Origin: Verrucomicrobiales bacterium
GTDB taxonomy: Bacteria; Verrucomicrobiota; Verrucomicrobiia; Limisphaerales; UBA9464
NCBI GenBank assembly: GCA_027488845.1
Contig: JAIYBC010000049.1
Coordinates: 1-57,707 of the forward strand
Length of the DNA stretch: 57,707 nt
Reading direction: 5' to 3'
Numbering within the stretch: position 1 is the first letter of the stretch; each line of letters begins with the position of its first letter. Below are positions 4,391 through 19,704 of this stretch, in pieces. The notes below the pieces were generated by a model that was given only the letters and a program-made list of their open reading frames with translations, was not told where the DNA came from and did not search any database. Position numbers and translations under genes: made by a program.

Positions 4391-5320
4391 GTGCCCACGT
4401 TCTCGCACACCCCGGTGATGCCTTCCGAGACGCTGTCCGCCCTGCGGCCGCGGTCGGGAGGACGTTACTTGGACGGGACACTCGGCGGAGCCGGCCATTC
4501 GGAGGCGATACTGACCGCGAGCGCGCCGGACGGCTTCCTCTGCGGCTGCGATCGCGACGACGACGCCTTGGAGGCGGCCGGACGCCGGCTTTCCGTTTTC
4601 CCGGGACGGTTTGAACTGAGGCGGGGGAACTTCTCGGAAGCGGCGGGGTGGATTCCGGCTGGGACCCTGGACGGGGTGTTGCTGGACCTCGGCGTGAGCT
4701 CCCATCAGATCGACAGTCCCGAGAGGGGGTTTTCGTTCCAGCACGACGGTCCGCTCGACATGCGGATGGATCGCCGCGGAGGACCCACCGCAGCGGACCT
4801 GGTAAACGGGCTGCCGGCCGAGGAGTTGGCACGGATCTTCTGGAAATGGGGCGAGGAACGCGAATCGAGACGGATCGCCCGCGCCTTGGAAAGCGAACGG
4901 AGAATGCGTCCCTTCACCACAACCCTGAGCCTGGCCGGATTCATCGAGTCCCTCGTCCCCCGTCGCGGCTCGCGGATCCATCCGGCCACCCGCGTGTTCC
5001 AGGCGCTGCGGATCGCGGTCAACGAGGAGCTTGCCTCGCTTCAGGCGGCGCTTCCGGCGCTCTTCGCCCTGCTGCGTCCCCAAGGCCGGCTTGCGGTCAT
5101 CACCTTCCATTCGTTGGAGGACCGCATCGTGAAGGAGTATTTCCGGACCGAGGCCCGCGGATACGACATCCAGGGATCCTACGACCACCCGGACTTCCGC
5201 ATTCCACGTGCCGCGCGGGGGCTCGACCTCCATCGCCGCGGATTGGTCGCCTCCGACGAGGAGACCGAAGCCAACCCCAGGTCCCGAAGCGCCCGACTCA
5301 GGGTGCTCGAACGCGTCTGA
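4391..5320 (+). CDS. rsmH: 16S rRNA (cytosine-1402-N4) methyltransferase RsmH
   Basis: RsmH (MraW) methylates C1402 of 16S rRNA with S-adenosylmethionine and is the usual second gene of dcw clusters. Diagnostic blocks are HTPVMPSETLSAL, YLDGTLGGAGHSEAIL (SAM loop), DGVLLDLGVSSHQID, RGFSFQHDGPLDMRMD and the C-terminal LAVITFHSLEDRIVKEYF. At 309 residues it has normal length. The start is a GTG at 4391, because the nearby ATG at 4384 is in another frame. The ftsL-like gene begins 2 bases after the stop. Confidence 0.97.
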   Translation: MPTFSHTPVMPSETLSALRPRSGGRYLDGTLGGAGHSEAILTASAPDGFLCGCDRDDDALEAAGRRLSVFPGRFELRRGNFSEAAGWIPAGTLDGVLLDLGVSSHQIDSPERGFSFQHDGPLDMRMDRRGGPTAADLVNGLPAEELARIFWKWGEERESRRIARALESERRMRPFTTTLSLAGFIESLVPRRGSRIHPATRVFQALRIAVNEELASLQAALPALFALLRPQGRLAVITFHSLEDRIVKEYFRTEARGYDIQGSYDHPDFRIPRAARGLDLHRRGLVASDEETEANPRSRSARLRVLERV

Positions 5321-5322
5321 AC

Positions 5323-5718
5323 ATGGCCGGAAGCCCCAATCCCACACCGTCGGAGATCCGGTTCGGCACCGTGCTGCGAGCCATCCTCGGATCGGCGATG
5401 ATCGCAGCCCTCGGCGTGCTTTGGGTCCTGCAGAGCCGGGAGCATCAGCAACTGCAGGATCAGATCACCCTCAGCAAGTCGAACTGCACGGTCTTGACCC
5501 ATCTCATCCGCCAGGATGGACGCAAACTGGACCCACTGCTCACCCGCCCCGCCCTCCTCGCCAAGGTGCAGGAGCTCGGGCTGGGCCTGACCAACATCAC
5601 CTATGGACAGGTGGTGAAGGTCACGAACTCGTCGCGCGAACGCTCCTTGGACATCACCTCACGTCGGCCCTCCCCCCAGGCGCCGGTCCCCGCCATCGCC
5701 ACCGCCGTTCCCCGATGA
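5323..5718 (+). CDS. ftsL: FtsL-like bitopic division protein
   Basis: The protein has 131 residues with a short cytoplasmic N-terminus, one membrane segment at about residues 17-37 (VLRAILGSAMIAALGVLWVL), and then a Q/E/L-rich heptad-like stretch starting SREHQQLQDQITLSKSN. This is the layout of FtsL, which joins FtsB and FtsQ and activates FtsW-FtsI. The family is too divergent for recognition by sequence alone, so the call rests on topology and on the conserved place between rsmH and ftsI. Its stop overlaps the start of ftsI by 4 bases. Confidence 0.75.
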   Translation: MAGSPNPTPSEIRFGTVLRAILGSAMIAALGVLWVLQSREHQQLQDQITLSKSNCTVLTHLIRQDGRKLDPLLTRPALLAKVQELGLGLTNITYGQVVKVTNSSRERSLDITSRRPSPQAPVPAIATAVPR

Positions 5719-7847
5719 ACCAGGACCTCCCCACGAATTCCAATCGGCGCCTGCGGTGCATGGCGTACCTGTTCGGCGGTGTCTTCGCGGTGCTCGCCGG
5801 ACGGCTGGTCTACATCCAGGGACTCCAGCCGGATTCACCGCGCTACACGCTCGGCGGCACGCCGGCCCGGGTCACCTACACCCCGGCGCTCCGAGGCGAG
5901 ATCCTGGACAGCCGCGGACAGCGGATCGTCCATTCCCAGCACGTCTACAACGTCCGGGCGAACCCGGTCCTGATCGGAGGACATGCGGATACCCTGGCGC
6001 GCCATCTCGCACCGGTCCTGGGCACCCCGGCGGAGCAGTTGGCCGAGTCCTTCCGGATCCGCCCCGAGCTCCGCTGGAAGCCGGAACCGAGGACCAACCT
6101 CGCCGGCGGATGGTCCACCAACTGGGTCCAGGCCAGCTTCACCAACCAGAGCGTCCTGGTGGCCACCAACCTCAGTCTGGACGCCTGGACCGCTGTGAAG
6201 ACGAACCTCGCCGCGTATGCCACCGCGGAGGAACTGGGGCTGCGGGCCGCTTGGGCCGCGCTGGATCGTCGCCGACTGAATCCGCCGACCTTCGCCTGGT
6301 GGGACCTGCCGTCCAAGTACCGATTCCGGCGCCAGCTGGCCCTGGAACGCAAGGAGATCGCGAAGGTGCTCCGTCCTCTCCGCATCGCGAACGACGTGAT
6401 CCGGAAGACCGCGCTTGCACCCGAGCTGCTCGAGAACCGGGTCTACCCCCACGAGAAGCTCAGCGCGCCGTTGCTCGGTTCGGTGACCAACGGTCCCGTT
6501 CCGGTCGTCGAGTACCGCACCGCCACCGGCAGCATCCACATCGCAGCCCGGGAACTGCCGCCCCGGGTCCAGGGGGCCTCCGGGATCGAACGCCAGTTCG
6601 ATGACGAACTCCGAGGGGTCCATGGCAAGTCCGTCTCCCGTCGTCGCGGCAGCCGCGAGCTCGCCAACACCCGGGAACTCGACGTCGTCCCGCAGCCCGG
6701 TGCGAACGTCCGCCTCACACTGGACGCCAACCTCCAGTACGTGGCCGAGGACGCCCTTCGCCGTGGCATGGAGCGACTGCGTCCCAACTGGATGTCGGCG
6801 ATCATGATCCGGCCGGCCACCGGTGAGATCCTGGCGCTCGCCAACGCCACCAGCCCGACCTACCTGCCGCCCGGGGTCACCAACGCCGCCTACTACCGGT
6901 CGCAGCCCCAGCGGAACCACGCGGTCTCCGAACTCGTCGAGCCCGGTTCGACGTTCAAGCTGGTCACCTACGCCGCCGCACTCGAGGCGGGTCGTATCAA
7001 CCCGGACTCCCGGATCGACTGCCAAGGCGGCGTCTGGATGCCTCCGACGGGCCGCCGCAAGACCGTGAACGACGCGCGTGGCCACAAGCTCGGCAACGCC
7101 AGCATCGAGGAGGCATTCGCGCTCTCGTCGAACGTCGGCGCCGCCAAGCTCGGCTACTACGAACTCTGGGACCCGAGGAGCGCACCTCGCGGCACGCCGC
7201 TCTGCCGCATGGCGGCGAACTTCGGCTTCATGCGCCGGACCGGGATCCTCTGCGGCGGCGAACCCGATACCCGCATTCCCTCCTGGGACGGCATGGGCAC
7301 CCAGATCATCCTGTCCTACGGGTACGGCATCTACGTGACCCCCCTTCAGGTCACCATGGCCTACGCGGCCATCGCCAATGGCGGCACGCTCATGGAACCG
7401 ATGCTGGTACGCTCCGTGGAGGACGCCTCCGGGAACGTGATCCGGTCCTACACCCCGCGCGTGGTCAACCAGGTCGTCCGCCCGGAAACGGCACGCCAAC
7501 TGGTCCGCCTCCTCACCGCCGTGGTCGGCCCCAAGGGAACCGGCAAGGACGCGGCCATGGCGGAGTACACGGTCGCGGGGAAGACCGGCACGGCCAACAA
7601 GATGACCCGCACCCACCTGGCCAACGGCGTCACCGCCCACTTCAGCACCTTCGTCGGATTCCTGCCGGCGGAGAAGCCGGAGATCTGCCTCCTGGTCTGC
7701 GCCGACGAACCCACGGGAACCGACGGCCGCGCCGCGTACGGCGCCGCCACCATCCCCACCTTCAACCAGATCGCCAGGGAGACCGCCAGCTACCTGACCC
7801 TTCCACCGTCGCCGTCCCTGGCCTTCGACATCTCGACCCGCCACTGA
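5715..7847 (+). CDS. ftsI: Class B penicillin-binding protein FtsI (septal transpeptidase)
   Basis: FtsI cross-links septal peptidoglycan in the periplasm. The 710-residue protein has one N-terminal membrane segment (LFGGVFAVLAGRLVYI), a dimerisation domain including RGEILDSRGQRI, and a C-terminal transpeptidase domain. The active-site motifs are all present: SxxK as STFK (S412-K415), SxN as SSN (471-473) and KTG (623-625). It is somewhat longer than E. coli FtsI, mainly from a large region between the dimerisation motifs and the SxxK. The ATG at 5715 overlaps the ftsL stop, and the murE-like gene follows after 2 bases. Confidence 0.94.
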   Translation: MNQDLPTNSNRRLRCMAYLFGGVFAVLAGRLVYIQGLQPDSPRYTLGGTPARVTYTPALRGEILDSRGQRIVHSQHVYNVRANPVLIGGHADTLARHLAPVLGTPAEQLAESFRIRPELRWKPEPRTNLAGGWSTNWVQASFTNQSVLVATNLSLDAWTAVKTNLAAYATAEELGLRAAWAALDRRRLNPPTFAWWDLPSKYRFRRQLALERKEIAKVLRPLRIANDVIRKTALAPELLENRVYPHEKLSAPLLGSVTNGPVPVVEYRTATGSIHIAARELPPRVQGASGIERQFDDELRGVHGKSVSRRRGSRELANTRELDVVPQPGANVRLTLDANLQYVAEDALRRGMERLRPNWMSAIMIRPATGEILALANATSPTYLPPGVTNAAYYRSQPQRNHAVSELVEPGSTFKLVTYAAALEAGRINPDSRIDCQGGVWMPPTGRRKTVNDARGHKLGNASIEEAFALSSNVGAAKLGYYELWDPRSAPRGTPLCRMAANFGFMRRTGILCGGEPDTRIPSWDGMGTQIILSYGYGIYVTPLQVTMAYAAIANGGTLMEPMLVRSVEDASGNVIRSYTPRVVNQVVRPETARQLVRLLTAVVGPKGTGKDAAMAEYTVAGKTGTANKMTRTHLANGVTAHFSTFVGFLPAEKPEICLLVCADEPTGTDGRAAYGAATIPTFNQIARETASYLTLPPSPSLAFDISTRH

Positions 7848-7849
7848 CC

Positions 7850-9148
7850 ATGCATCTCGAATCCCTCATCGAACGCCTGCCCGGGGTCTCCGCGCTCCCG
7901 GCCCGCGGCACGATCCCGGCCACCGAGATCCGCAGCGTCACCTCCGATCCGGACCGCGCCGGACCGGACACCATCTTCGCCGCGATCCCGTCCAGGATGG
8001 CCGCCGATCCGCTGGGAACCCAGACCGCCATCGGCCGCGGTGCTCCGGCCGTGATCTGTCGGCCCGGTACCGTCATCCCCAAGGGCACCCGCCGCATCGT
8101 CGCCGACCAGCCCGGCAGGACCTTCAGCGACGCCGCCGCGGCCCTCAACGGCAACCCCCTCTCCCGCCTCCACCTCTTCCGCGTGGGCCTCGCGGGCCGG
8201 GTCTCCGGCGCGGCGGCGGCCTTCCTCCATGCACTCCTGGAACACGCAGGGCACCGTTCGGCGCTCCTGACCGCCGACGGCGGCCTCGTCGCCGGCCGAC
8301 ATTTTCCGCAGGTGCCGGCGGAATCGGACAGCCACGAATGGCACCGCCTGTTCGCCGCGCACGTCCGCACCGGGGGCACCGCCCTGGTCGTGGAAGACCA
8401 CCCCTCGGTCAACGAGGTCCTGGGCGGCATCGCCCCGCTCGCAGAAACCCGGGTCGGCGACGCCGGCGGTCGCCGGATCCGCCCGGTCGCGCTCCACTGG
8501 CGTGGGAGCCGTGTGCGGATGGACGTCGGTTCCGCGGAGCGGCTCGCGCACACCCCGATCGCCGGTTCGGGAAGCCTCCGCGCCCTCGATGCGGCGATGT
8601 CGGCCTGCGCCGGGGCGGGCGCCGATCCGGTGCGCCTTGCCTCGCTGGTACCCGGGCTCACGCCCGCAACCGGCTTCATGGAACCGGTGCAGGCCGGCCA
8701 GCCCTTCGGCGTCTTCGTCGACGGCGCCAACGATGCGGCCTCCATCCGCGAACTGGTTCGGGAAGCGCGCGAAATGACCCAGGGTGCCGTGATCCTGGTG
8801 ACCGGCGCCGATGCGGGTTCGACCGCACAGACCCGGCAACAGCTGGGCGAGGCGGCCTCCGAGGCGGACCGCGTGATCCTCACCGCCGACAACCCGCGCC
8901 GTATCGGGTTCGCCGCGATCACCGCCGAGGTGCTCCGTGGAACCACCCGGCCCGCCCAGACGGAGCCCGACCGCCAACGCGCGATCCTCTCGGCAATCCG
9001 ACAGGCACGCGCCGGTGACATCGTCCTCCTCGCCGGCAAGGCCCGTCGGCCGGTCCAGGAGATCGACGGCACGATCGTCCCCTGGGACGACCGCTCCCAC
9101 GCCCGCGACTCCCTCGCCGTCCGCGGATGGATTGGAGACCTCACTTGA
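7850..9148 (+). CDS. murE: MurE-like protein, probable pseudoenzyme
   Basis: The gene sits where murE normally lies (ftsI-murE-murF) and aligns with MurE end to end, but at 432 residues it is ~60 shorter. Kept are the N-terminal IRSVTSDPDRAGPDTIFAAI block, the C-terminal-domain DNPR motif (347-350; selects meso-diaminopimelate in true MurE) and PWDDRSHARDSL. Lost are the P-loop, where GTNGKTT should be but GLAGRVSGA (113-121) is found, the EVSSHAL and NLTRDHLDYH segments of the central domain, the YAHTPD motif (now DGANDAAS, 291-298) and GKGHE (now GKARRP). It therefore cannot bind ATP in the usual way and is unlikely to ligate amino acids. The frame is open throughout with host-like codon use, so it is maintained, not decaying. 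Confidence 0.85.
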   Translation: MHLESLIERLPGVSALPARGTIPATEIRSVTSDPDRAGPDTIFAAIPSRMAADPLGTQTAIGRGAPAVICRPGTVIPKGTRRIVADQPGRTFSDAAAALNGNPLSRLHLFRVGLAGRVSGAAAAFLHALLEHAGHRSALLTADGGLVAGRHFPQVPAESDSHEWHRLFAAHVRTGGTALVVEDHPSVNEVLGGIAPLAETRVGDAGGRRIRPVALHWRGSRVRMDVGSAERLAHTPIAGSGSLRALDAAMSACAGAGADPVRLASLVPGLTPATGFMEPVQAGQPFGVFVDGANDAASIRELVREAREMTQGAVILVTGADAGSTAQTRQQLGEAASEADRVILTADNPRRIGFAAITAEVLRGTTRPAQTEPDRQRAILSAIRQARAGDIVLLAGKARRPVQEIDGTIVPWDDRSHARDSLAVRGWIGDLT

Positions 9149-9411
9149 ACCCGGCACGCTCCCATTTCCACGGCCTGGTCGCGGACCCGCTCCACGCAGG
9201 TGGCCTCAGCGCCTCGGCAAGACCACTGGCGCGCACTTGGCTGATGGTGTCGGACACCGAATCGACCGGCGTCGCCGGAGCCATGCGGAAAGGCCTGTCC
9301 GAGGTCCTGCCGCTTCGCTCCGCGAACACCTCCGGAGACGGGATGAACGACGTGTCCAACGGGTCGAAGTCGGTCACCACCCCCGTCCACGCCAGCTTCC
9401 GCCTGAACTGA
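9145..9411 (+). CDS. Small unknown protein between murE-like gene and murF
   Basis: An 88-residue frame starts at a TTG that overlaps the stop of the murE-like gene (TTGA) and ends 4 bases before murF, exactly filling the gap. Its third codon positions are nearly all G or C, as in the flanking genes. It has no signal peptide or membrane segment and is rich in Ser, Thr, Asn and Gly at the C-terminus. I recognise no family. A caution is that a 79-codon frame on the minus strand (9141-9380) shares the same third positions, so composition alone does not decide the strand; the operon fit favours plus. Confidence 0.5.
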   Translation: MNPARSHFHGLVADPLHAGGLSASARPLARTWLMVSDTESTGVAGAMRKGLSEVLPLRSANTSGDGMNDVSNGSKSVTTPVHASFRLN

Positions 9412-9415
9412 CGCG

Positions 9416-10816
9416 ATGGAACCCCTCACCCTCCAGACCTGCATCGAAGCCACCGGTGGAAGGGCTGTCCGCGCGGGTTCCGCCGCCTCGGTGTCCCGCG
9501 TGGAGACCGACTCCCGTTCGGCCCGGCCCGGCGACCTGTTCTTCGCCTTGAAGGGAGAGCGTTTCGACGCGCATGACTTCCTGCCCGAGGTCGTGGCAAG
9601 GGGAGTGGCGGCGGTGGTGGTCCGCAACGGCTCGGAGGGCCGCGTTCCCGACGGTCCGGCGGTGCTTGTCGTCGACGACACCCGCACCGCGTTGGGCCGG
9701 CTCGCCGCGGCCTACCGGCGCCAGCGGGATGTCCGAACCGCGTGCGTCTGCGGATCGAACGGCAAGACCAGCACCAAGGAGATGCTGGCGGACATCCTCG
9801 CGACCCGGTTTTCGACCCTGCGATCCGAGGCCAGCTTCAACAACGACATCGGCGTGCCGCTGAGCCTGCTCCGGATCGGGGCCGGCCACGAGGCCGCGGT
9901 GCTGGAGGCCGGCACGAACCACCCCGGCGAACTGGCGCCCCTGGTCGGGATGATCGCGCCGGATGTCGGCCTGGTCCCCAGCATCGGCCGGGAACACCTC
10001 GAACACTTCGGCGACCTGGCCGGCGTCGTCGAGGAGGAGTCCGCCTTGGGCCGCGGACTTTCCCGGCACGGGGTCCTGGTCCTCGGAGGCGACATGCCAT
10101 CCGCCGACGTCCTTGCGGCCTCGACGCGGGCCAGGGTCGTCCGCGCGGGCTTCGGCGGCGGGAACGACTGGCAGGTCCGCCTCACGGCCACGCGGTGGGA
10201 GAGCACATCGTTCCGGCTGACCGCCCCTCTTCCGGAATGGTGTCTCGAGTTCGAACTGGGGGTCCCCGGCCGACACATGGTCGCCAACGCCGCCGTCGCG
10301 CTGGCCGCCGCCGCCGCCATGGGTGCGGAACCGGAACCGGCGCGCCGCGCCCTCGCCGCATTCCGCGGGGCCAAACAGCGGCTCCAATGGACCGAGCACG
10401 CCGGTGTGCGGTTGCTGGATGACACCTACAACGCGAACGCCGATTCGATGCTGGCCGCGCTGCAGACCCTCTCCGACCTCCCGTGCGCCGGACGCCGTGT
10501 GGCGATCCTCGGGGACATGGCGGAATTGGGCTCGCATGCCGGGGAGGCGCACCGGGAGGTCGGAGCCGCCGCCGGAAGACTGGGTCTCGACGTGCTCGTG
10601 GCCATCGGGCGCCATTCGGAACTGACGCGGGAGGCGGCGGTCGGCACCACGACGCGACTCTCGTTCCCGGATGTCGAATCCGCCCTGCCGGCAGTGCGTG
10701 ACCTGCTCCGGAACGGAGACACCGTGCTCGCCAAAGCCTCCCGTTCCAGCCGGCTGGAACGGGTGATCGAAGGACTCCGCGAACACCTCAGGTCCGGGGA
10801 ACCGCCCTCCAACTGA
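9416..10816 (+). CDS. murF: UDP-MurNAc-tripeptide--D-Ala-D-Ala ligase MurF
   Basis: MurF is the last cytoplasmic Mur ligase and adds D-Ala-D-Ala to the UDP-MurNAc-tripeptide, using ATP. The 466-residue protein is complete. It has DSRSARPGDLFFALKGERFD at the N-terminus, the P-loop GSNGKTSTKE (Lys117), AVLEAGTNHPGELAPL, the PSIGREHLEHFGD segment, and the C-terminal-domain LLDDTYNANADSMLAAL and ILGDMAELG motifs. In contrast to the murE-like gene upstream, every catalytic element is in place. Its activity needs tripeptide made by MurC, MurD and MurE, none of which is encoded intact in this cluster. Confidence 0.96.
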   Translation: MEPLTLQTCIEATGGRAVRAGSAASVSRVETDSRSARPGDLFFALKGERFDAHDFLPEVVARGVAAVVVRNGSEGRVPDGPAVLVVDDTRTALGRLAAAYRRQRDVRTACVCGSNGKTSTKEMLADILATRFSTLRSEASFNNDIGVPLSLLRIGAGHEAAVLEAGTNHPGELAPLVGMIAPDVGLVPSIGREHLEHFGDLAGVVEEESALGRGLSRHGVLVLGGDMPSADVLAASTRARVVRAGFGGGNDWQVRLTATRWESTSFRLTAPLPEWCLEFELGVPGRHMVANAAVALAAAAAMGAEPEPARRALAAFRGAKQRLQWTEHAGVRLLDDTYNANADSMLAALQTLSDLPCAGRRVAILGDMAELGSHAGEAHREVGAAAGRLGLDVLVAIGRHSELTREAAVGTTTRLSFPDVESALPAVRDLLRNGDTVLAKASRSSRLERVIEGLREHLRSGEPPSN

Positions 10817-10819
10817 ACC

Positions 10820-11944
10820 ATGCTGTACCGCCTCTCCGAACTGTTCCCACAGGTTCCCTGGTCCGTGTTCAAGTACGTGACCTTCCGGAGCGCCGGCGCC
10901 GCGGTCACCGCGTTGCTGCTTTCCTGGATCCTAGGGCCCCGCGTCATCGCGTGGCTCAGGGACCTCCGTTTCCGGCAGGAATACCGGCCGAAGGACGTCC
11001 GGGGCGGAGAAGACCCGGCAGCGGCCGCGGCCGACCTCGCCAAGCGGGGGACTCCCACCATGGGAGGAATCCTGATCGTCCTGGTCTTGGACATCACCGT
11101 GTTCCTCTGGGCCCGCCCGAACACCATGGTTCTCCTGACCATGCTCTCGCTGCTCGTGCTCGCCTTCCTCGGCTTCTACGACGACTGGCTCAAGGTCACC
11201 AAACAGGACGCCGGCGGGGCGAAGTCCCGACTGAAGCTCGTCGTCCAGACGACCTTGGCCTTCGGCATCGGGATCTACCTTTGGATGCGCCCGTCCACCC
11301 GGGTGCTGGTCAGCGACATCCAGGTGCCCTTCCTCAAGGAACCCCTGCTCATCGGAGTGCCGATCCTCGGGATCCTCCTCGCCGGATTGACCATCATCGG
11401 GAGTTCCAACGCCGTGAACCTCACAGACGGCATGGACGGCTTGGCCATCGGGTGCACGCTGATCGTCGCGGTGGTCATGCTGATCCTCACCTACCTCGCG
11501 GACAACGTGAAGCTGGCCGCCTACCTCCAGATCCCCCATGTGCGGGAGACGAGCGAGTTGACGGTCGTCTGCGCGGCGTTGATCGGGGCCTGCCTGGGAT
11601 TCCTTTGGTTCAACTGCCACCCGGCGGAGGTCTTCATGGGCGACACCGGCAGCCTGGCCCTCGGCGGCACCCTTGGGATCATGGCGGTGCTCATCCACCA
11701 ACCGTTCGTGCTCATGATCGCCGGCGGGGTCTTCGTCGCCGAGGCGCTCAGCGTCATGCTCCAGGTCGGGTGGTTCAAATACACGCGGAAGAAGTACGGC
11801 GAAGGACGGCGCATCTTCCGGATGTCGCCGCTCCACCACCATTTCCAGAAGCTGGGGTGGAAGGAGTCGAAGGTGGTCACCCGCTTCTACATCGCCGGGA
11901 TCCTCTGCGCCGTGATGGCCCTGAGCACCCTCAAGATCCGGTGA
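10820..11944 (+). CDS. mraY: Phospho-MurNAc-pentapeptide transferase MraY
   Basis: MraY joins UDP-MurNAc-pentapeptide to undecaprenyl phosphate, making lipid I on the inner face of the membrane. The 374-residue protein has about ten membrane segments and the family signatures GTPTMGGILI, AFLGFYDDWLKV (Asp-rich loop), SNAVNLTDGMDGLAIG, EVFMGDTGSLALGG and SPLHHHFQKLGW. It starts 3 bases after murF. In most clusters murD follows, but here there is a 394-base gap and then a LysM lipoprotein gene. Confidence 0.97.
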   Translation: MLYRLSELFPQVPWSVFKYVTFRSAGAAVTALLLSWILGPRVIAWLRDLRFRQEYRPKDVRGGEDPAAAAADLAKRGTPTMGGILIVLVLDITVFLWARPNTMVLLTMLSLLVLAFLGFYDDWLKVTKQDAGGAKSRLKLVVQTTLAFGIGIYLWMRPSTRVLVSDIQVPFLKEPLLIGVPILGILLAGLTIIGSSNAVNLTDGMDGLAIGCTLIVAVVMLILTYLADNVKLAAYLQIPHVRETSELTVVCAALIGACLGFLWFNCHPAEVFMGDTGSLALGGTLGIMAVLIHQPFVLMIAGGVFVAEALSVMLQVGWFKYTRKKYGEGRRIFRMSPLHHHFQKLGWKESKVVTRFYIAGILCAVMALSTLKIR

Positions 11945-12338
11945 ACACGCCCACCAAGGAAACCCGGGACACGCCTTCGAAAGGCGGATTTCCCCATCTT
12001 TCCAAGCCGCGGGACGGGATGCTTCTTGCCCCTCCTGCGGCCCGGGCTTTAATCGTTTTGCGAGCCGGCGGAATCCGTCCGGTCGCTGCCAGTGTCTGTC
12101 GCGACGGCGACCGGTGCGAACCCCCATTTGTTCCAGCGGCTGCCGGAAGGCTTCGGGTCCCGACGATCCGAGTCCATTCCGGCGTCCCTGCGGCCTCCAC
12201 CCGGAGTGGAGGCGACATCGCGTTCCGTCCGGGACGCGCATCCCATTTCGCCACGGCACGGGTGGAGGACCCGGCCGCAACGAACCCGCCCCACCCAATC
12301 CTCGAACCGCGACGCCGCGACGTCGTCACCAACCAAGA
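11945..12338. other. 394-base gap where murD is normally found
   Basis: No murD-like sequence is visible in any frame, and the best open frame (a GTG at 11941 read to 12342) has mixed third-position composition unlike the neighbours. The gap contains a hairpin, GCCTCCAC (12193-12200) pairing with GTGGAGGC (12206-12213) around a 5-base loop, and a short AT-richer patch near 12045-12062 that could be part of a promoter for the LysM gene and the genes after it. It is the largest gap in the otherwise tightly packed cluster. Confidence 0.5.
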
Positions 12339-13272: not shown

Positions 13273-14418
13273 GTGCGCACCACCTCGCTCATCCTGCTGC
13301 TGACCGTGAGCCTCCTGCTCGCGCTCAGCATCACCATGTTGTCGAGCGCGGTGATGCTCTACTCGACCTTCCAGTCGATGGTGGCGGTGCAGGCGGGGGC
13401 GATCGCCGCGGGGATCGTGGGCATGTGCGCCCTCTGGCGCCTGGACTACCGGTGGTTCGTCCGGAACCACTGGTGGACCTACGCCGCGGCGACAGCCCTG
13501 CTCGTCCTCGTCCTCTCGCCGCTGGGCACCTTCCGCAACGGCGCCCAGCGCTGGGTCTTCGGCATCCAGCCGGCCGAGTTCGCCAAGATCTCCCTCCTGC
13601 TGACCCTCGCCGCCTGGTGCGCACGCCACGAGGCACGCATCCGGCTGGGGCGGCCGGGGATCGCCTTCGTCTGGGGATTCCTCCTGCCGGGCCTGCTCGT
13701 CCTCCCCCTGCTGGCGCTGCTCTACAAGCAGCCCGACCGCGGAACCCTCATCCTCTACGGAGTGGTGACCGTCGTGATGCTGCTGCTGGCGGGGCTCCAT
13801 TTCGGCTACGCGGCGATCGCGGCGGCCATGGGCGGCCTGCTGGGTTTCCACTTCTACAACACCAGCGAGATGGTCCGGAAACGCCTCGATGCGTTCCTCC
13901 ACCCGGAACTGTACCGCGAGAGCACCGGATCACAGGCCCTGAAATCCCTTGCCGCACTCCGCGAGGGCGGCATCCACGGCACCGGACTTGGGACCGGTGT
14001 CATCAAGCTGAGCATCCCGGAACAGCACACGGACTTCATACTGCCCGTCATCGGCGAGGAACTGGGGCTCGTCTTCACGCTCGCCGTCGTGGCCGCGTTC
14101 GTCGTCATCCTCTGCTGCGCCGTCCACATCGCCTCCCGTGCCGCGGATTCGTCCGGTCGCCTGCTCGCGGGCGGGATCGGATTCCTCATCGCCGGCCAGG
14201 CCGCCATCAACGTGGCGGTGGTCACCAATTCGATGATCAACAAGGGGATGCCCCTGCCTTTCGTGAGCCGGGGCGGCTCCAGCATGATGGCCATGCTCGC
14301 CCTGGTCGGACTGCTCCTCTCCATCGCGCGCCAAGCCCCGGAGGTCGCCGAGCGGAACCGGTCCATGGCGGGAAACCCGTTCGACGGAACCGAGATCGAA
14401 TCCCTGCCCGCCCGATGA
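13273..14418 (+). CDS. ftsW: SEDS-family glycosyltransferase FtsW
   Basis: FtsW polymerises glycan strands at the septum together with FtsI. The 381-residue protein has about ten membrane segments and the SEDS signatures RWVFGIQPAEFAKI, the QPDRGT motif, IPEQHTDFILPVIGEELG and PFVSRGGSSMM. The last motif has Arg where FtsW usually has Tyr or Asn (PFVSYGGSS). The start is a GTG at 13273, 31 bases after the LysM gene. The stop overlaps murG by 4 bases. RodA is the alternative, but the location favours FtsW. Confidence 0.95.
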   Translation: MRTTSLILLLTVSLLLALSITMLSSAVMLYSTFQSMVAVQAGAIAAGIVGMCALWRLDYRWFVRNHWWTYAAATALLVLVLSPLGTFRNGAQRWVFGIQPAEFAKISLLLTLAAWCARHEARIRLGRPGIAFVWGFLLPGLLVLPLLALLYKQPDRGTLILYGVVTVVMLLLAGLHFGYAAIAAAMGGLLGFHFYNTSEMVRKRLDAFLHPELYRESTGSQALKSLAALREGGIHGTGLGTGVIKLSIPEQHTDFILPVIGEELGLVFTLAVVAAFVVILCCAVHIASRAADSSGRLLAGGIGFLIAGQAAINVAVVTNSMINKGMPLPFVSRGGSSMMAMLALVGLLLSIARQAPEVAERNRSMAGNPFDGTEIESLPAR

Positions 14419-15641
14419 CCTCCCCGAGTTCCTCGCTCCACGTGGCCATCGCCTGCGGCGGCACCGGTGGACACCTCTTCCCCGGTCTCGCGGTCGGGCG
14501 TGAACTGGTCGCCCGGGGCAGCCGGGCGACGCTGCTCGTCTCCCCGAAGGAAGTGGATCAGACCGCGGTTGCGGGACTCACCGGACTCTCGGTGGCGACC
14601 CTGCCCGCCACCGGGCTCCAGGATGGACGCCACCTCGCGTTCGCCCTCGGGTTCTGGCGTGCGTTCCGCACGTCTTCGAGCCTCTTCCGCACCCGCGGTG
14701 GACGCCCGGACGCCTTGCTGGCCATGGGCGGATTCACCGCCGCCCCTCCGTTCCTGGCGGCCCGGCTGCGGGGTGCAGCCACCTTCCTCCACGAATCCAA
14801 CACCGTGCCCGGCCGGGCGAACCGCCTTCTTTCCCGCTTTGTGGACCGGGCCTTCATCGGTTTCCCGGAAGCCGCCACCCGCCTGCCGTCCGCCGTCTGC
14901 GAGTGCGTCGGCACCCCGGTCCGGGACGCCATCGCCCAACTGCGGAACCATCGCGATGTGGCCTCGGCCCGAACGGCGCTGGGCCTCGATCCGCAGCGTC
15001 CGGTGCTGCTGGTCACCGGCGGCAGCCAAGGCGCCCGCGGTCTCAACCGTCTGGTCTCCGCCGCCCTGCCCGCCTTGGCCCTCGCCGTGCCGGACCTCCA
15101 GTTCATCCACCTCTCCGGCACGCCCGACCTCGAGACGGTCCGCACCGCCCACCGCCCCTTCGGCCAACGCTCCGTGGTCCGACCATTTCTCGCCGAGATG
15201 CACCTTGCGCTCGCCGCCGCCGACGCCGTCGTGAGCCGGGCCGGAGCCTCCTCGATGGCGGAACTGGCCGCCCTCCGGCTTCCTTCGGTTCTGGTGCCCC
15301 TTCCCACCGCCACCGACAACCACCAGGCCCACAACGCCGACTCCTTCGTCCGGGCCGGGGCCGCGATCCGGCTCGACCAGGATTCCGCCACCGCCACCGG
15401 ACTCGTCGAGGCCGTCGTCTCGATCCTGTGCGGCGGATCCCACCGTGGCGGACTCCAGATGGGGCTGGAGCGGATGGATCGCCCCGGGGCGGCCGCGGGC
15501 ATCGCCGAAGCCATCCTTTCCCACCTGCGGGAACCCTTCACGCAGGCCGCGCGCCGAATGGTCCCCGCACCCCGCAAGCCGACGCCCGCGGAACACCGCG
15601 ACGCCACCGCCGTCCTGATTCCCGCCAAGGAGACCCCATGA
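14415..15641 (+). CDS. murG: MurG, lipid II-forming GlcNAc transferase
   Basis: MurG adds GlcNAc from UDP-GlcNAc to lipid I on the cytoplasmic face of the membrane. The N-terminal glycine loop is IACGGTGGHLFPGLAVG, followed by AMGGFTAAPPFLAA, FLHESNTVPGRANRL, the VTGGSQGARGLN block, and the donor-binding SRAGASSMAELAAL and LPTATDNHQAHNA. At 408 residues it is ~40 longer than usual because of a basic, Pro-rich C-terminal tail. It overlaps both ftsW and murB by 4 bases. murC, which usually sits between murG and murB, is absent. Confidence 0.97.
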   Translation: MTSPSSSLHVAIACGGTGGHLFPGLAVGRELVARGSRATLLVSPKEVDQTAVAGLTGLSVATLPATGLQDGRHLAFALGFWRAFRTSSSLFRTRGGRPDALLAMGGFTAAPPFLAARLRGAATFLHESNTVPGRANRLLSRFVDRAFIGFPEAATRLPSAVCECVGTPVRDAIAQLRNHRDVASARTALGLDPQRPVLLVTGGSQGARGLNRLVSAALPALALAVPDLQFIHLSGTPDLETVRTAHRPFGQRSVVRPFLAEMHLALAAADAVVSRAGASSMAELAALRLPSVLVPLPTATDNHQAHNADSFVRAGAAIRLDQDSATATGLVEAVVSILCGGSHRGGLQMGLERMDRPGAAAGIAEAILSHLREPFTQAARRMVPAPRKPTPAEHRDATAVLIPAKETP

Positions 15642-16627
15642 GCACTCCCCTCCGACTTTCCTCCGAGGCCCTGGCCCCGGACGACGAAGCGGCCGCGCTC
15701 CACGCCGAGGCCGTTTCGAACCTCTTCCGCGACCTGCAGATCCTGCTCCCGACGGACACCCTCATCCGCCGCGACGAACCGCTCGCAAAACGCACCACCC
15801 TCCGCGTCGGAGGCCCCGCCGACCTGCTCGTCGAACCCGGCAGCGACCCCGCCCTCGCCTTGGTCCTCGAGACCGCCCGCCTCCGCGGGCTGCCCGTGAC
15901 CGTCATCGGCCGCGGCTCGAACCTGCTCATCCGGGACGGCGGCGTCCGTGGCGTCGTGGTCTCCCTGGGCCACCCCCATTTCTCCCGCGTGGAAATCCGG
16001 GGCGAACGCATCACCGCCGGCGCCGGCGCCCGACTCAAGACGATCGCCCACGAAGCCCGCAGGGCCGGGCTCACCGGACTCGAGTTCTTCGAGGGAATCC
16101 CCGGCGCCCTGGGCGGCGCGCTCCGGATGAACGCCGGCGCCATGGGCGCCTGGACCTTCGACGCCGTCGAGTCGCTGCGTTACATGAGCCGTGGAGGCGT
16201 GATCTCCGAAGCCCCCGCCTCCGGGATCCCCGTCGAATACAGGGCCTGCCCGCTGCTCCGGACCCACATCGCCCTCGGCGCGGTGCTGAAGGCGACGCCG
16301 GCCGATGCCGAGGCCATCCGGACGCGCATGGACCAGTTCTCCCGCAAACGCTGGGACAGCCAGCCCAGCGAACCCAGCGCCGGCTGCACGTTCAAGAACC
16401 CGCTTCCAACCGTCCCCGCCGGACGTCTCATCGACGAGCTCGGCCTCAAGGGCACGCGCATCGGCGACGCCATGGTCAGCCCGGTGCACGCCAACTTCTT
16501 CGTCAACCTCGGCAACGCCACGGCCAAGGACGTCCTCACCCTGATCGAGGTGATCCGCACCCGCGCCCGCGAAGCACGCGGGCTCGAACTGGAGACCGAG
16601 GTCGAGATCCTGGGGGAGGACGCGTGA
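15638..16627 (+). CDS. murB: UDP-N-acetylenolpyruvylglucosamine reductase MurB
   Basis: MurB reduces enolpyruvyl-UDP-GlcNAc to UDP-MurNAc with NADPH and FAD. The 329-residue protein has the FAD-binding TLRVGGPADLLVEP and IGRGSNLLIRDGGVRG blocks, the FFEGIPGALGGALRMNAGAM motif, a catalytic-loop region PSAGCTFKNP and the C-terminal VHANFFVNLGNATAKDV. The motifs SAGCTFKNP and the length fit a type I or IIb enzyme; I did not resolve which. A strong ribosome site (AAGGAG) precedes the ATG. It overlaps murG and ddl by 4 bases. Confidence 0.97.
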   Translation: MSTPLRLSSEALAPDDEAAALHAEAVSNLFRDLQILLPTDTLIRRDEPLAKRTTLRVGGPADLLVEPGSDPALALVLETARLRGLPVTVIGRGSNLLIRDGGVRGVVVSLGHPHFSRVEIRGERITAGAGARLKTIAHEARRAGLTGLEFFEGIPGALGGALRMNAGAMGAWTFDAVESLRYMSRGGVISEAPASGIPVEYRACPLLRTHIALGAVLKATPADAEAIRTRMDQFSRKRWDSQPSEPSAGCTFKNPLPTVPAGRLIDELGLKGTRIGDAMVSPVHANFFVNLGNATAKDVLTLIEVIRTRAREARGLELETEVEILGEDA

Positions 16628-17538
16628 CAGGGAACCGGAACATCGTCGTGCTGCTCGGCGGCCCCTCGGCCGAACGCGAGGTCTCCCTCCGATCCGGCGC
16701 CGCCGTCGCCGCCGCATTGCGCTCCCTCGGCCACACCGTCGACGAGATCGACCCGGTTCCCGGCGACCTGCGGATCCCCGCGGGTGCCGATGCCGTCTTC
16801 CTCGCCCTCCACGGCACCTACGGCGAGGACGGCACCGTCCAGTCCGAGCTGGAGGAACTCGGGATCCCCTACACCGGCTGCGGGGTCTCCTCCTCCCTCT
16901 ACGCCTTCGACAAGGTCATCACCAAACGCCGCTGCATCCGCGCCGGCATTCCCACGGCCCCGTTCGTGGTCTTCAACGACGCCCGGGCTCCTTGGCCGGA
17001 AGGTTGGACCGCACCGGTGGTGATCAAGCCCACCCGCCAGGGTTCCTCGGTCGGACTCCAGTTCGTCGATTCCGCCGACGCCTTCCCGGCCGCCCTTGCG
17101 GAGTCGCTCCGGCACGGCGGCGAGGTGGTCATGGAACAGCGTGTCCTTGGACGCGAGACCACCGTCGGCATCCTCGATGGCCGCGCCCTGCCCGTCGTCG
17201 AGGTCCGCCCCAAGTCCGGTTCCTACGACTACTCGAGCAAGTACACGGCGGGCCGCACGGAATATCTCTGCCCCGCGCCCTTCGACGCACCGACCACCGC
17301 ACGCATCCAGGAAGCCGCCCTCGGCGCGTTCCATGCGGTCGGCGGACGCGACTACGCCCGGGTGGACGTGATGGTCTCCGGACAGGGCGACCCCGTTGTC
17401 CTCGAGGTGAACACCCTTCCCGGCATGACCGAGACCAGCCTTCTGCCCAAGGCCGCCGCCGCCGCCGGAATCGGCTTCGCGGAACTGTGCGACCGGATGG
17501 TTTCGCTCGCACTCCTGCGCAGGAATCCGCGGACCTGA
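16624..17538 (+). CDS. ddl: D-alanine--D-alanine ligase
   Basis: Ddl makes the D-Ala-D-Ala dipeptide that MurF attaches. The 304-residue ATP-grasp protein has the N-terminal LLGGPSAEREVSLRSG, LHGTYGEDGTVQ, the ATP-binding KPTRQGSSVGL, YDYSSKYTAGRTEYLCPA, and the C-terminal LEVNTLPGMTETSLLPKAA. Both D-Ala-binding regions look intact. The start is a GTG at 16624 overlapping the murB stop (GTGA), and ftsQ follows after 5 bases. Confidence 0.97.
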   Translation: MTGNRNIVVLLGGPSAEREVSLRSGAAVAAALRSLGHTVDEIDPVPGDLRIPAGADAVFLALHGTYGEDGTVQSELEELGIPYTGCGVSSSLYAFDKVITKRRCIRAGIPTAPFVVFNDARAPWPEGWTAPVVIKPTRQGSSVGLQFVDSADAFPAALAESLRHGGEVVMEQRVLGRETTVGILDGRALPVVEVRPKSGSYDYSSKYTAGRTEYLCPAPFDAPTTARIQEAALGAFHAVGGRDYARVDVMVSGQGDPVVLEVNTLPGMTETSLLPKAAAAAGIGFAELCDRMVSLALLRRNPRT

Positions 17539-17543
17539 CCCCG

Positions 17544-18503
17544 ATGTTCCAGTCCTCCCATTCCAACCGCCGCAACCGTCCCGCCGGTCAGACGCTGATG
17601 GCGCGCCTGAAGTCCGACGCAGCGGGCTCCCGCCGTCCTTGGTGGGTCCGAGCCCTCATCCGGACCGGTCTGCTCGCGGTGTTCATGGCGGCGCTCGGCG
17701 TCGGGGGCTGGTGGGTCCGGGACCGCTGGGTCTATCGGATCCCTTCCCTCGCCATCCGCGAGATCGTCGTCGAGGTCGACGGCGTGCTAGCCCCGGACGA
17801 GGTCCGCAGGCTCGCCGGCATCCGACTGGGCAGGAACATCCTCTCCGTGGACCTGCCGGGTCTGCGCGACCGCCTGCAACTCCATCCCCGCGTCGCCTCC
17901 GCGAAGATCGTCGTCGAATTCCCCGGAACCCTCTCGATCCAGATCCGGGAGCGGCTGCCCGTGGCCGCGGTGGAACCCCTCGTCGGGAGCGGCATCAAGG
18001 CCCGGTATCTCCTCGATGAGACCGGCCACGTGATCATGCCTCTCTCCCCGGGCGCCGCCCCGGAGCCGGCGATCGCCGCCGAGGCCGCACTGCCCCGGAT
18101 CACGGGTCGTGGCACGGTCTCGCCCGAGGCCGATGCCGACACCCTCGCCGCGCTGCGATTCCTCCGGGCACACTCCCTGCGGCCCGAGGGCGCCCTGCCC
18201 GACATCGCCTCCGTCTCCGTGGCGGTTCCCGGCCTGCTCGACGTCACCACGCTCGACGGTGCCACGATCCGGTTCGGGGGCGAACCCACGTCCCTGGACC
18301 TCCAGCTGCGACGCTGGAGCGACCTCCGCGCCACGCTGGCCGCCTCCGGGGAGAAGCGTGCCATCCGGACCCTCGACCTGAGCGTGTCCCAGAACGCCCC
18401 GATCCGCTGGCTGGAATCCTCCCCCGAACAACCCGCGACCGCCCCGGCCTCCCCGCAGACCCGGCCCCGGCTGAAGCGCATCCCCAGACGCACCCATGTT
18501 TAG
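17544..18503 (+). CDS. ftsQ: FtsQ/DivIB-type division protein
   Basis: The 319-residue protein has a basic cytoplasmic N-terminus, one membrane segment at about 39-57 (RTGLLAVFMAALGVGGWWV), then a POTRA-like region (IREIVVEVDGVLAPDEVRRLAGIRLGRNILSVD...HPRVASAKIVVEFPGTLSIQIRERLPVA) and a beta domain. This matches FtsQ, which links the division proteins in the periplasm. The C-terminal tail is Pro/Arg-rich. The gene overlaps ftsA by 8 bases, and the order ddl-ftsQ-ftsA-ftsZ is the classical one. Confidence 0.92.
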   Translation: MFQSSHSNRRNRPAGQTLMARLKSDAAGSRRPWWVRALIRTGLLAVFMAALGVGGWWVRDRWVYRIPSLAIREIVVEVDGVLAPDEVRRLAGIRLGRNILSVDLPGLRDRLQLHPRVASAKIVVEFPGTLSIQIRERLPVAAVEPLVGSGIKARYLLDETGHVIMPLSPGAAPEPAIAAEAALPRITGRGTVSPEADADTLAALRFLRAHSLRPEGALPDIASVSVAVPGLLDVTTLDGATIRFGGEPTSLDLQLRRWSDLRATLAASGEKRAIRTLDLSVSQNAPIRWLESSPEQPATAPASPQTRPRLKRIPRRTHV

Positions 18504-19704
18504 CGAAGCCCCATTGCTCGTCGGCCTGGAGATCGGCACCTCCAAGATCTGCGCCGCCGTCGGCGAGGAGAACGACCGCGGCGAATTCACCCTGCTCGGC
18601 ATCGGCCAGGCGCGCTCCCGCGGCGTCCGCAAGGGGGAGATCGTCGATCCCGCCAAGGCCCAGGAGGACGTCCGGACCGCCCTCGCCAACGCCGAGGAGC
18701 AGGCCGGCGTCACCATCGGCAACCTCTTCCTCGGGGTCACCGGCCGCCATGTCGAGGGCTTCAACAACGTCGGCATGCATCCCGTGGCCTCCGACGACCG
18801 CCTGGTCACCCCCCAGGACATCGCCGACGCCGCCGCCAACGCCAAGGCGATCACCCTCCCCGCGGAACACACCGTCCTCCACACCATCCGCCAGCGCGTC
18901 TGCATCGACGGCGAGGAAGTCGTGGACGACCCCGTCGGCATGGTCGGCCACAAGGTCGAGGCCCACGTCCACGTCATCCACGGCAGCGCCCTTCGCATCC
19001 AGAATCCGGTCAACCTCGTCCGCGCCCTCTCCATCGAGGTCAACCACACGGTCTTCAACGGACTCGCGGACGCCCAGGCGGTGCTCACCCCCGAGGACAA
19101 GGAGAACGGCGCGCTCGTCATCGACATCGGCGGCGGCACCACCGAGTTCGTCTTCCAGCAGGGCCAGGGCATCCGCCAGTCCGGCGTCTTCGCCATCGGC
19201 GGCGACCACATCAGCAACGACATCGCCATCGGCCTGAAGGTCAACCTCGGCATGGCCGAGAGCCTGAAGATCAAGTGCGGCAGCGCCCTGGTCGACCCCT
19301 CCTGCCATGGCCGCCGCGTGCCGATCGGCGAGGACGACCACGGCATCAAGTCCCGCGAGGTGAGCGTGGAACACCTCCGCCGGATCATGTCCGTCCGGAT
19401 CCAGGAGATCCTCGAGCTGATCGCCGAACGGTGTTCCGAAGGCTGCTTCCTCGACGAGGCGCGGGCGGGCGTCTTCCTTTGCGGCGGTGGCGCCCACATC
19501 CCGGGCATCGACGTCCTCGCCCAGCGCGTCTTCCACCTGCCGGTGACGCTGGCCACCTGCCGGAACATCACCGGGAACTCCACGACCCTTTCCCATCCCG
19601 AGTTCTCGACCGCCATCGGCATCGCGCGCTATGGCGGCATGCGCCTTCGGGGACGTCCCCGTCCGCGCTTCAACCTCCGCGACGTCTTCCCGTTCTTCCG
19701 CTGA
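18496..19704 (+). CDS. ftsA: Cell division protein FtsA
   Basis: FtsA is an actin-like ATPase that ties FtsZ filaments to the membrane and recruits later division proteins. The 402-residue protein has the phosphate-1 motif LLVGLEIGTSKICAAVGE, a 1C domain region, phosphate-2 ALVIDIGGGTTEFV, and the adenosine motif VFLCGGGAHIPGI. The C-terminus ends RPRFNLRDVFPFFR, a short basic and hydrophobic helix that would act as the membrane-targeting sequence. All nucleotide motifs look intact, unlike those of its partner FtsZ 10 bases downstream. Confidence 0.96.
   Translation: MFSEAPLLVGLEIGTSKICAAVGEENDRGEFTLLGIGQARSRGVRKGEIVDPAKAQEDVRTALANAEEQAGVTIGNLFLGVTGRHVEGFNNVGMHPVASDDRLVTPQDIADAAANAKAITLPAEHTVLHTIRQRVCIDGEEVVDDPVGMVGHKVEAHVHVIHGSALRIQNPVNLVRALSIEVNHTVFNGLADAQAVLTPEDKENGALVIDIGGGTTEFVFQQGQGIRQSGVFAIGGDHISNDIAIGLKVNLGMAESLKIKCGSALVDPSCHGRRVPIGEDDHGIKSREVSVEHLRRIMSVRIQEILELIAERCSEGCFLDEARAGVFLCGGGAHIPGIDVLAQRVFHLPVTLATCRNITGNSTTLSHPEFSTAIGIARYGGMRLRGRPRPRFNLRDVFPFFR

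Follow-up and report, generated by a model that had tools for sequence, protein, structure and literature searches.

Textbooks list the ligases MurC, MurD and MurE as essential, and all three are drug targets. MurG-scaffolded Mur complexes have reportedly been described for Bordetella pertussis; in these, as in MurE-MurF complexes, both ligases are active. Furthermore, a MurB-MurC fusion is said to occur in Verrucomicrobium spinosum. Mpl, an enzyme of peptidoglycan recycling, salvages peptide beside MurC-MurE as described in an excerpt of PMC3060825, in which its strongly preferred substrate is L-Ala-gamma-D-Glu-DAP, with weak use of L-Ala and L-Ala-D-Glu; overexpression of E. coli mpl rescues a murC mutant, and (S/T)AFFDKRSK is given there as an Mpl-specific motif. 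Angiosperm MurE homologs are a peripheral component of PEP, and AtMurE is functionally divergent (excerpt of PMC12681378).

The window, i.e. the whole stretch of 57,707 nucleotides analyzed here (G000:C54), belongs to an assembly of 5.39 Mb that is 95% complete. It contains a dcw cluster with the order mraZ, mraW, ftsL, ftsI, murE*, murF, mraY, a LysM gene, ftsW, murG, murB, ddl, ftsQ, ftsA and ftsZ (Table 1); mraZ and ftsL were named by sequence and place. The intact cluster of genome G144 reads ftsI-murE-murF-mraY-murD-LysM-ftsW-murG-murC-ddl. In the window, murG is followed directly by murB near position 15640, where the intact cluster has murC, and no murD remnant was found at the murD place. 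The initial annotation had the murE* gene packed between ftsI and murF. This holds for the side of ftsI, which murE* adjoins, but not for the other side, where a gap of about 267 bases before murF is occupied by a decayed SIMPL gene (PF04402, DUF541). The SIMPL gene that separates murE* from murF in a sister genome (L013) is 243 aa long, and a recurring family with a SIMPL representative was present in 31 of 80 dcw loci, 6 of which bear murE. At the named locus L133, a SIMPL gene is located directly 5' of murF.

Table 1. Coordinates of dcw cluster features in the window.
Feature	Position	Strand	Basis or remark
ftsI	5208..7847	+	ORF as listed; true start inside ORF
murE*, predicted MurE-derived pseudoenzyme, 432 aa	7850..9148	+	ORF, profile search, alignment, fold model
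SIMPL (PF04402) gene remains	9145..9411	+	about 465 bases shorter than the sister-genome gene
murF, Mur ligase, P-loop GSNGKTS	9416..10816	+	profile match
mraY	10820..11944	+	
murD place of the intact G144 cluster (between mraY and LysM gene)	11945..12335	+	
ftsW, then murG	13273..14418	+	
ddl	16624..17538	+	then ftsQ, ftsA, ftsZ
ftsA	18496-19704		after ftsQ
ftsZ	ends 21022		after ftsA

At residue 113, the P-loop place of murE*, the sequence reads GLAGRVSGA instead of GTNGK(T/S), with Gly in the Lys column. DNPR, the motif of DAP-adding MurE, is present at 347-350, DGANDAAS stands at 291 in place of YAHTPD, and GKARRP is found at 396, where the GKGHE loop is lost. From the P-loop to PLIGRH, 184 residues were counted in the intact MurE of G144 and 122 in murE*; thus, about 60 central residues are deleted. 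The EVSSHAL/NLTRDHLDYH part, and with it the central stretch of the metal site, falls within this deletion, and a gap occupies the column of the carbamylated Lys, the role of which is described in an excerpt of PMC3060825. Scored with the MurE model TIGR01085, murE* reached 135 bits (E 3.6e-39), which is below the curated cut-off of 257.3, and the C-terminal Mur domain was the only Pfam match over cut-off. Judged by its sequence, murE* is a MurE pseudoenzyme. The initial annotation had described it in these terms, as a MurE relative without P-loop, central region and GKGHE, and the motifs were found where it had placed them; the host-like codon use that it noted agrees with a GC3 of 0.863, as compared to 0.81-0.94 in five neighbor genes.

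An AF2 model of murE* was built with alignment A2 (26 rows, 23 of them from the window's family) and reached a pLDDT of 90.7 and a pTM of 0.88. MurE structures ranked first in comparisons with Foldseek and VIA-align. Staphylococcus aureus MurE (4c13) aligned over 419 residues with Z 34.3 and an rmsd of 3.5 (model range 1-429), and PAP11 (8r6s) over 417 residues with Z 31.2 and an rmsd of 3.0. The likeness to MurE from end to end, also claimed at the outset, was recovered in the model: murE* is predicted to retain the whole three-domain fold of MurE.

Homologs of murE* were found in 38 of the 50 family genomes, its own included, and in 7 of 9 genera. The match showed 33-96% identity in 36 other genomes and consisted of a short piece alone in G033 (48%); 12 genomes had none. 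One of the 38 matches contains an internal stop, the remaining 37 do not. A GK(S/T) P-loop in register is absent from all 26 rows of A2, L097 reading TGGKSRA out of register. Of the 23 family rows, 13 have the full DNPR and 10 a changed form of it; furthermore, the N-terminal part comprises 63-65 residues instead of about 100 in 5 of the 23, where it is unaligned (start codons assumed). In two family genomes of genus g2, ftsI adjoins murF with no murE* between them, hence the gene is dispensable in places; the family member G011 has a gap of 944 bases and no murE*.

Between the window and its two nearest relatives, NG86 dN/dS of murE* was 0.05 and 0.07; nine other nearer pairs gave 0.06-0.23, so that ten of these eleven comparisons fell at 0.05-0.14 and one at 0.23. 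At the same loci, values of 0.11-0.33 were obtained for the compared part of murF and 0.03-0.13 for ftsI; murE* was lower than the murF part in all eleven. In six distant comparisons with the window, where dS approached or exceeded 1, murE* gave 0.17-0.56 or yielded no value; the ratios of murF were raised as well (0.12-0.44), and those of ftsI were 0.10-0.28. Pooled over seven pairs, or six in the case of domain 1, the values for domains 1, 2 and 3 of murE* were 0.15, 0.13 and 0.11. The best conserved of seven stretches was GFMEPVxAGQPFGVFVD at 276-292 in domain 3, the least conserved was the P-loop place with a mean pairwise identity of 0.25. By these comparisons, murE* is old and under purifying selection, and neither decaying nor an assembly error. 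The initial annotation had already assumed that the gene is kept by selection and had named a dN/dS near 1 as the sign of decay; the ratios of the nearer pairs, together with the homologs across the family, came out in favor of selection.

A PF08245 profile search of the own genome, G000, gave three candidates, all of which were scored; they are MurF, Mpl and FolC. Neither MurC nor MurD nor a second MurE was found by this search in the 95% complete assembly; a second, intact murE was the first thing that the initial annotation had proposed to look for. The Mpl of G000 (contig C17) passes the TIGR01081 profile with an E of 6.8e-130 and carries TAFFDKRSK. Three or fewer PF08245 matches were present in 46 of the 50 family genomes, the identity of the matches having been read in G000 only, and G024 and G010 have extra PF08245 pieces at contig ends. 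Extra whole Mur-ligase-like genes were seen at G041:C237:4892-5449, G047:C144:11531-12085 and G047:C268:19076-19648.

The search was extended to the order Limisphaerales (245 genomes; 80 related records, all MAGs), with the best six or fewer candidates scored per genome and a genome completeness of 54-98%. Over the curated cut-offs were MurE in 95 genomes, MurC in 63, MurD in 132 and Mpl in 208, a MurD over cut-off not being equivalent to an active MurD; 53 of the 63 MurC-passing genomes are among the matches listed. Thirty-nine genomes are termed MurC-less here: they have no MurE over cut-off, and their best MurC-model E is 1e-83 to 2e-94, i.e. at the level of Mpl; 8 of them have MurD over cut-off. 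Among the matches listed, the best MurC-model match of MurC-less genomes was their own Mpl gene. Twenty genomes termed intact have MurD and MurE over cut-off, and a listed MurC over cut-off was present in 19 of them, not in G098. MurA was over cut-off in 39 of 39 MurC-less genomes; therefore, UDP-MurNAc can still be made.

Glutamate racemase MurI was over cut-off in none of the 39 MurC-less genomes, in 13 of the 20 intact and in 1 of 6 intermediate ones; counted by family, it was present in 0 of 18 vs 7 of 12 (Fisher p 0.0004). MurI-like matches under cut-off occurred in six MurC-less genomes, and a MurI-like piece of G037 (107 bits, contig end) may be a real MurI. MurC, MurD and MurI are missing together with MurE while MurA, MurB, MurF and Mpl stay, which is our main point beyond the initial annotation. 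A YcjG-like protein, resembling the E. coli L-Ala-D/L-Glu epimerase with at least 93 bits, was found in 32 of 39 MurC-less, 7 of 20 intact and 4 of 6 intermediate genomes. This enrichment (Fisher p 0.0005 by genome and 0.02 by family) is a correlation among related genomes that are not independent. Five of 20 loci (L216, L217, L218, L219 and L222), all from the window's family, have folC close to the YcjG-like gene. Two larger families beside it were rejected, because they consist mostly of shadow frames (48 of 52 members).

Nineteen other dcw clusters were read, and all 17 that reach the murC place have murB there and no murC match. These clusters are otherwise complete, with murD, murE, both or neither left, often in altered form. 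Among the 80 named loci, some of which are cut by contig ends, 18 had a murE match and 12 a murC match. Remnants of murD, scoring 42-172 bits, were seen after mraY and before the LysM gene in L107, L108, L109, L110, L112, L126 and L146, where the gene seems to be in decay.

All twelve scored residues are intact in 19 MurD rows (G144 and 18 named loci, 17 with murE in view). Of 25 other rows, a set in which some genomes appear twice, 20 lack the carbamate-site Lys and 19 the metal-site Glu. The P-loop Lys, by contrast, is present in 24 of these 25, hence the altered MurD may not be inert, and the repeated pattern may reflect changed rather than lost function. The altered MurD of G202 (L083) and G070 (L082) keeps the P-loop Lys, has Gln for the metal-site Glu and has no carbamate Lys. 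MurD of G069 and of its named copy L138 differs at one scored residue only.

Altered MurD is the survivor in several other families, and degenerate MurE was found in f1, f33, the f15 genomes G063 and G249 and two genomes of f57; altered MurE and MurD therefore seem, within the limits of a quick tree of 97 clusters, to have arisen more than once. This tree, in which many forks are weak and the branch of the window is long, was used solely to see that the losses are clustered and recurrent. MurD and MurE are both intact in L147, L161, L168 and L172, one clade on this tree; murB occupies the place of murC in these loci, where Mpl may perform the MurC step. G147 (L095) of f15 has an intact MurE in a dcw cluster without murC and murD, and no MurI over cut-off. 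Together with G069, these are among the MurC-less clusters in which the residues of MurD and/or MurE are all or nearly intact.

The neighborhoods of mpl and of the YcjG-like gene were searched for a source of tripeptide, and no shared neighbor suggesting a tripeptide maker was found. Widely shared mpl-neighbor families (20 loci in 19 genomes, 3 of them intact) were discarded as mpl shadow frames, since 81 of 82 members overlap mpl; one weak family in 5 loci is free of such overlap. No family confined to murE-less dcw loci was present in more than 10 of 62; one such family resembles an amidase (L106). ATP-grasp_4 (PF13535) matches scored 21-44 bits, several at dcw ddl genes and none in G000, and gave no candidate; two stronger matches occurred in G080 and G118. 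GCS2 was found in 2 of 39 MurC-less and 3 of 20 intact genomes, with no candidate for a tripeptide ligase.

We consider it most plausible, with confidence just short of even, that murE* is a direct descendant of dcw murE which has lost its ligase chemistry and acts as a non-catalytic partner of the MurF, MraY/MurG and FtsI machinery. The loss of the site, the purifying selection and the gene set were observed in the sequences, and the whole MurE fold was modelled; the flow of precursors through Mpl and the scaffold function of murE* are inferred. Following MurA and MurB, Mpl would join a pre-formed tripeptide to UDP-MurNAc, and the resulting UDP-MurNAc-tripeptide would be passed to MurF; murE* would be left without a ligase job and would serve as a scaffold or partner of the remaining wall machinery. 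Since Mpl and MurF remain where MurC, MurD, MurE and MurI are gone, a pathway via Mpl is probably the simplest, and the selection acting on a well-folded but dead MurE next to murF suggests a partner role. Several results fit less well: the missing murE* in 12 of 50 family genomes and the direct ftsI-murF adjacency in the two g2 genomes, the distant comparisons at 0.17-0.56 or without a value (with murF rising likewise), the lack of a tripeptide-making enzyme in the ATP-grasp_4 and GCS2 searches, the extra Mur-ligase-like genes of G041 and G047, and the altered MurD that keeps its P-loop Lys in 24 of 25 rows and is possibly not inert. The MurC-less clusters with near-intact MurD or MurE are, moreover, not explained by one simple route.

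Obligate scavenging, in which muropeptides or tripeptide from other bacteria would be attached by Mpl and murE* would be a sensor or a leftover, appears unlikely. The joint absence of MurC, MurD, MurE and MurI with Mpl kept would agree with it, as would the YcjG-like gene in 32 of 39 MurC-less vs 7 of 20 intact genomes. However, the trait is spread over many families, and these genomes of 2-9 Mb, with MurA, Ddl (where read) and an otherwise complete dcw cluster, are unlike those of wall auxotrophs.

Equally improbable in our judgment is a role of murE* as a sensor or regulator that binds UDP-MurNAc-tripeptide or DAP without ligation and adjusts the activity of MurF, MraY or Mpl. The model retains all three domains of the fold, conservation is highest in domain 3, and the DAP-site motif DNPR is present in the window and complete in 13 of 23 family rows, but it is altered in the other 10, the N-terminal part is about one third shorter and unaligned in 5 of 23, and the Glu of GKGHE is lost. 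Binding of the UDP-MurNAc-peptide, which the initial annotation had found attractive, is thus doubtful. The uneven retention of the ligand-binding features makes a scaffold likelier than a ligand sensor.

A stepwise replacement of MurC, MurD and MurE on UDP-MurNAc by unrelated enzymes outside the Mur-ligase profiles is quite improbable. The tripeptide must come from something, and lineages with MurD alone or MurE alone would fit such piecemeal change; yet three substitutes would be needed and a further one for MurI, the widespread Mpl already yields the product, and two ligase families (ATP-grasp_4 and GCS2) gave no candidate. Very little weight can be given to a changed enzyme activity of murE* without P-loop, e.g. 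on free peptide: strong purifying selection and a well-ordered model speak for it, but among the seven stretches conservation is lowest at the P-loop place (identity 0.25), and no new conserved polar cluster was seen in A2 by eye. Finally, that murE* is a decaying pseudogene or an assembly error is hardly credible in view of dN/dS of 0.05-0.23 in the eleven nearer comparisons, 37 of 38 matches free of stops and a pLDDT of 90.7, even though the neighboring SIMPL gene is decayed in the window, murD remnants occur in seven named loci and one of the 38 family matches contains a stop.

The reading of murE* as a non-catalytic partner in an Mpl-fed pathway can be widened to the order, though more tentatively and with somewhat less confidence. 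Over half of the genomes sampled from the order, whose members are apparently free-living, would encode peptidoglycan synthesis without MurC, MurE, MurI and often MurD; free tripeptide would be produced by undescribed enzymes, with D-Glu perhaps arising by peptide epimerization, and would enter via Mpl, and MurE*/MurD* would be structural or regulatory parts. A lineage without the enzymes for the first three residues may thus build its wall by an undescribed route. Having MurA, MurB, MurF, MraY, MurG, Ddl and FtsI but not MurC-MurE, it must feed the pathway differently, and tracing its tripeptide to the source would uncover new peptide ligases or else an auxotrophy for wall peptide in bacteria with large genomes. 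If true, this would go beyond another non-enzyme derived from a Mur ligase. Furthermore, a selected MurE* together with an altered MurD would be a natural test of roles of Mur ligases beyond catalysis. Among titles and abstract openings of the open-access literature, a dcw MurE pseudoenzyme or the combined loss of Mur enzymes is apparently undescribed.

Compared to the MurE ligases of S. aureus (4c13) and Mycobacterium tuberculosis (2xja), murE* shares the dcw place, the three-domain fold and DNPR; unlike them, it has neither the P-loop nor about 60 central residues nor GKGHE, and it stays below the TIGR01085 cut-off. Described Mpl works beside MurC-MurE, whereas in G000 it is the sole Mur-type peptide entry found. 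The MurE-MurF ligase complex 8f5d, also a fold match, is a precedent for Mur ligases as physical partners; in contrast to it, murE* is dead as judged by its residues and is unfused to MurF. By analogy, the nearest precedent for its reuse may be PAP11, a subunit of the chloroplast RNA polymerase and a MurE descendant reused in another machine, which matches murE* in fold. PAP11, however, belongs to a plant organelle and to an RNA polymerase, whereas murE* is a bacterial dcw gene, the two being compared here by sequence and fold.
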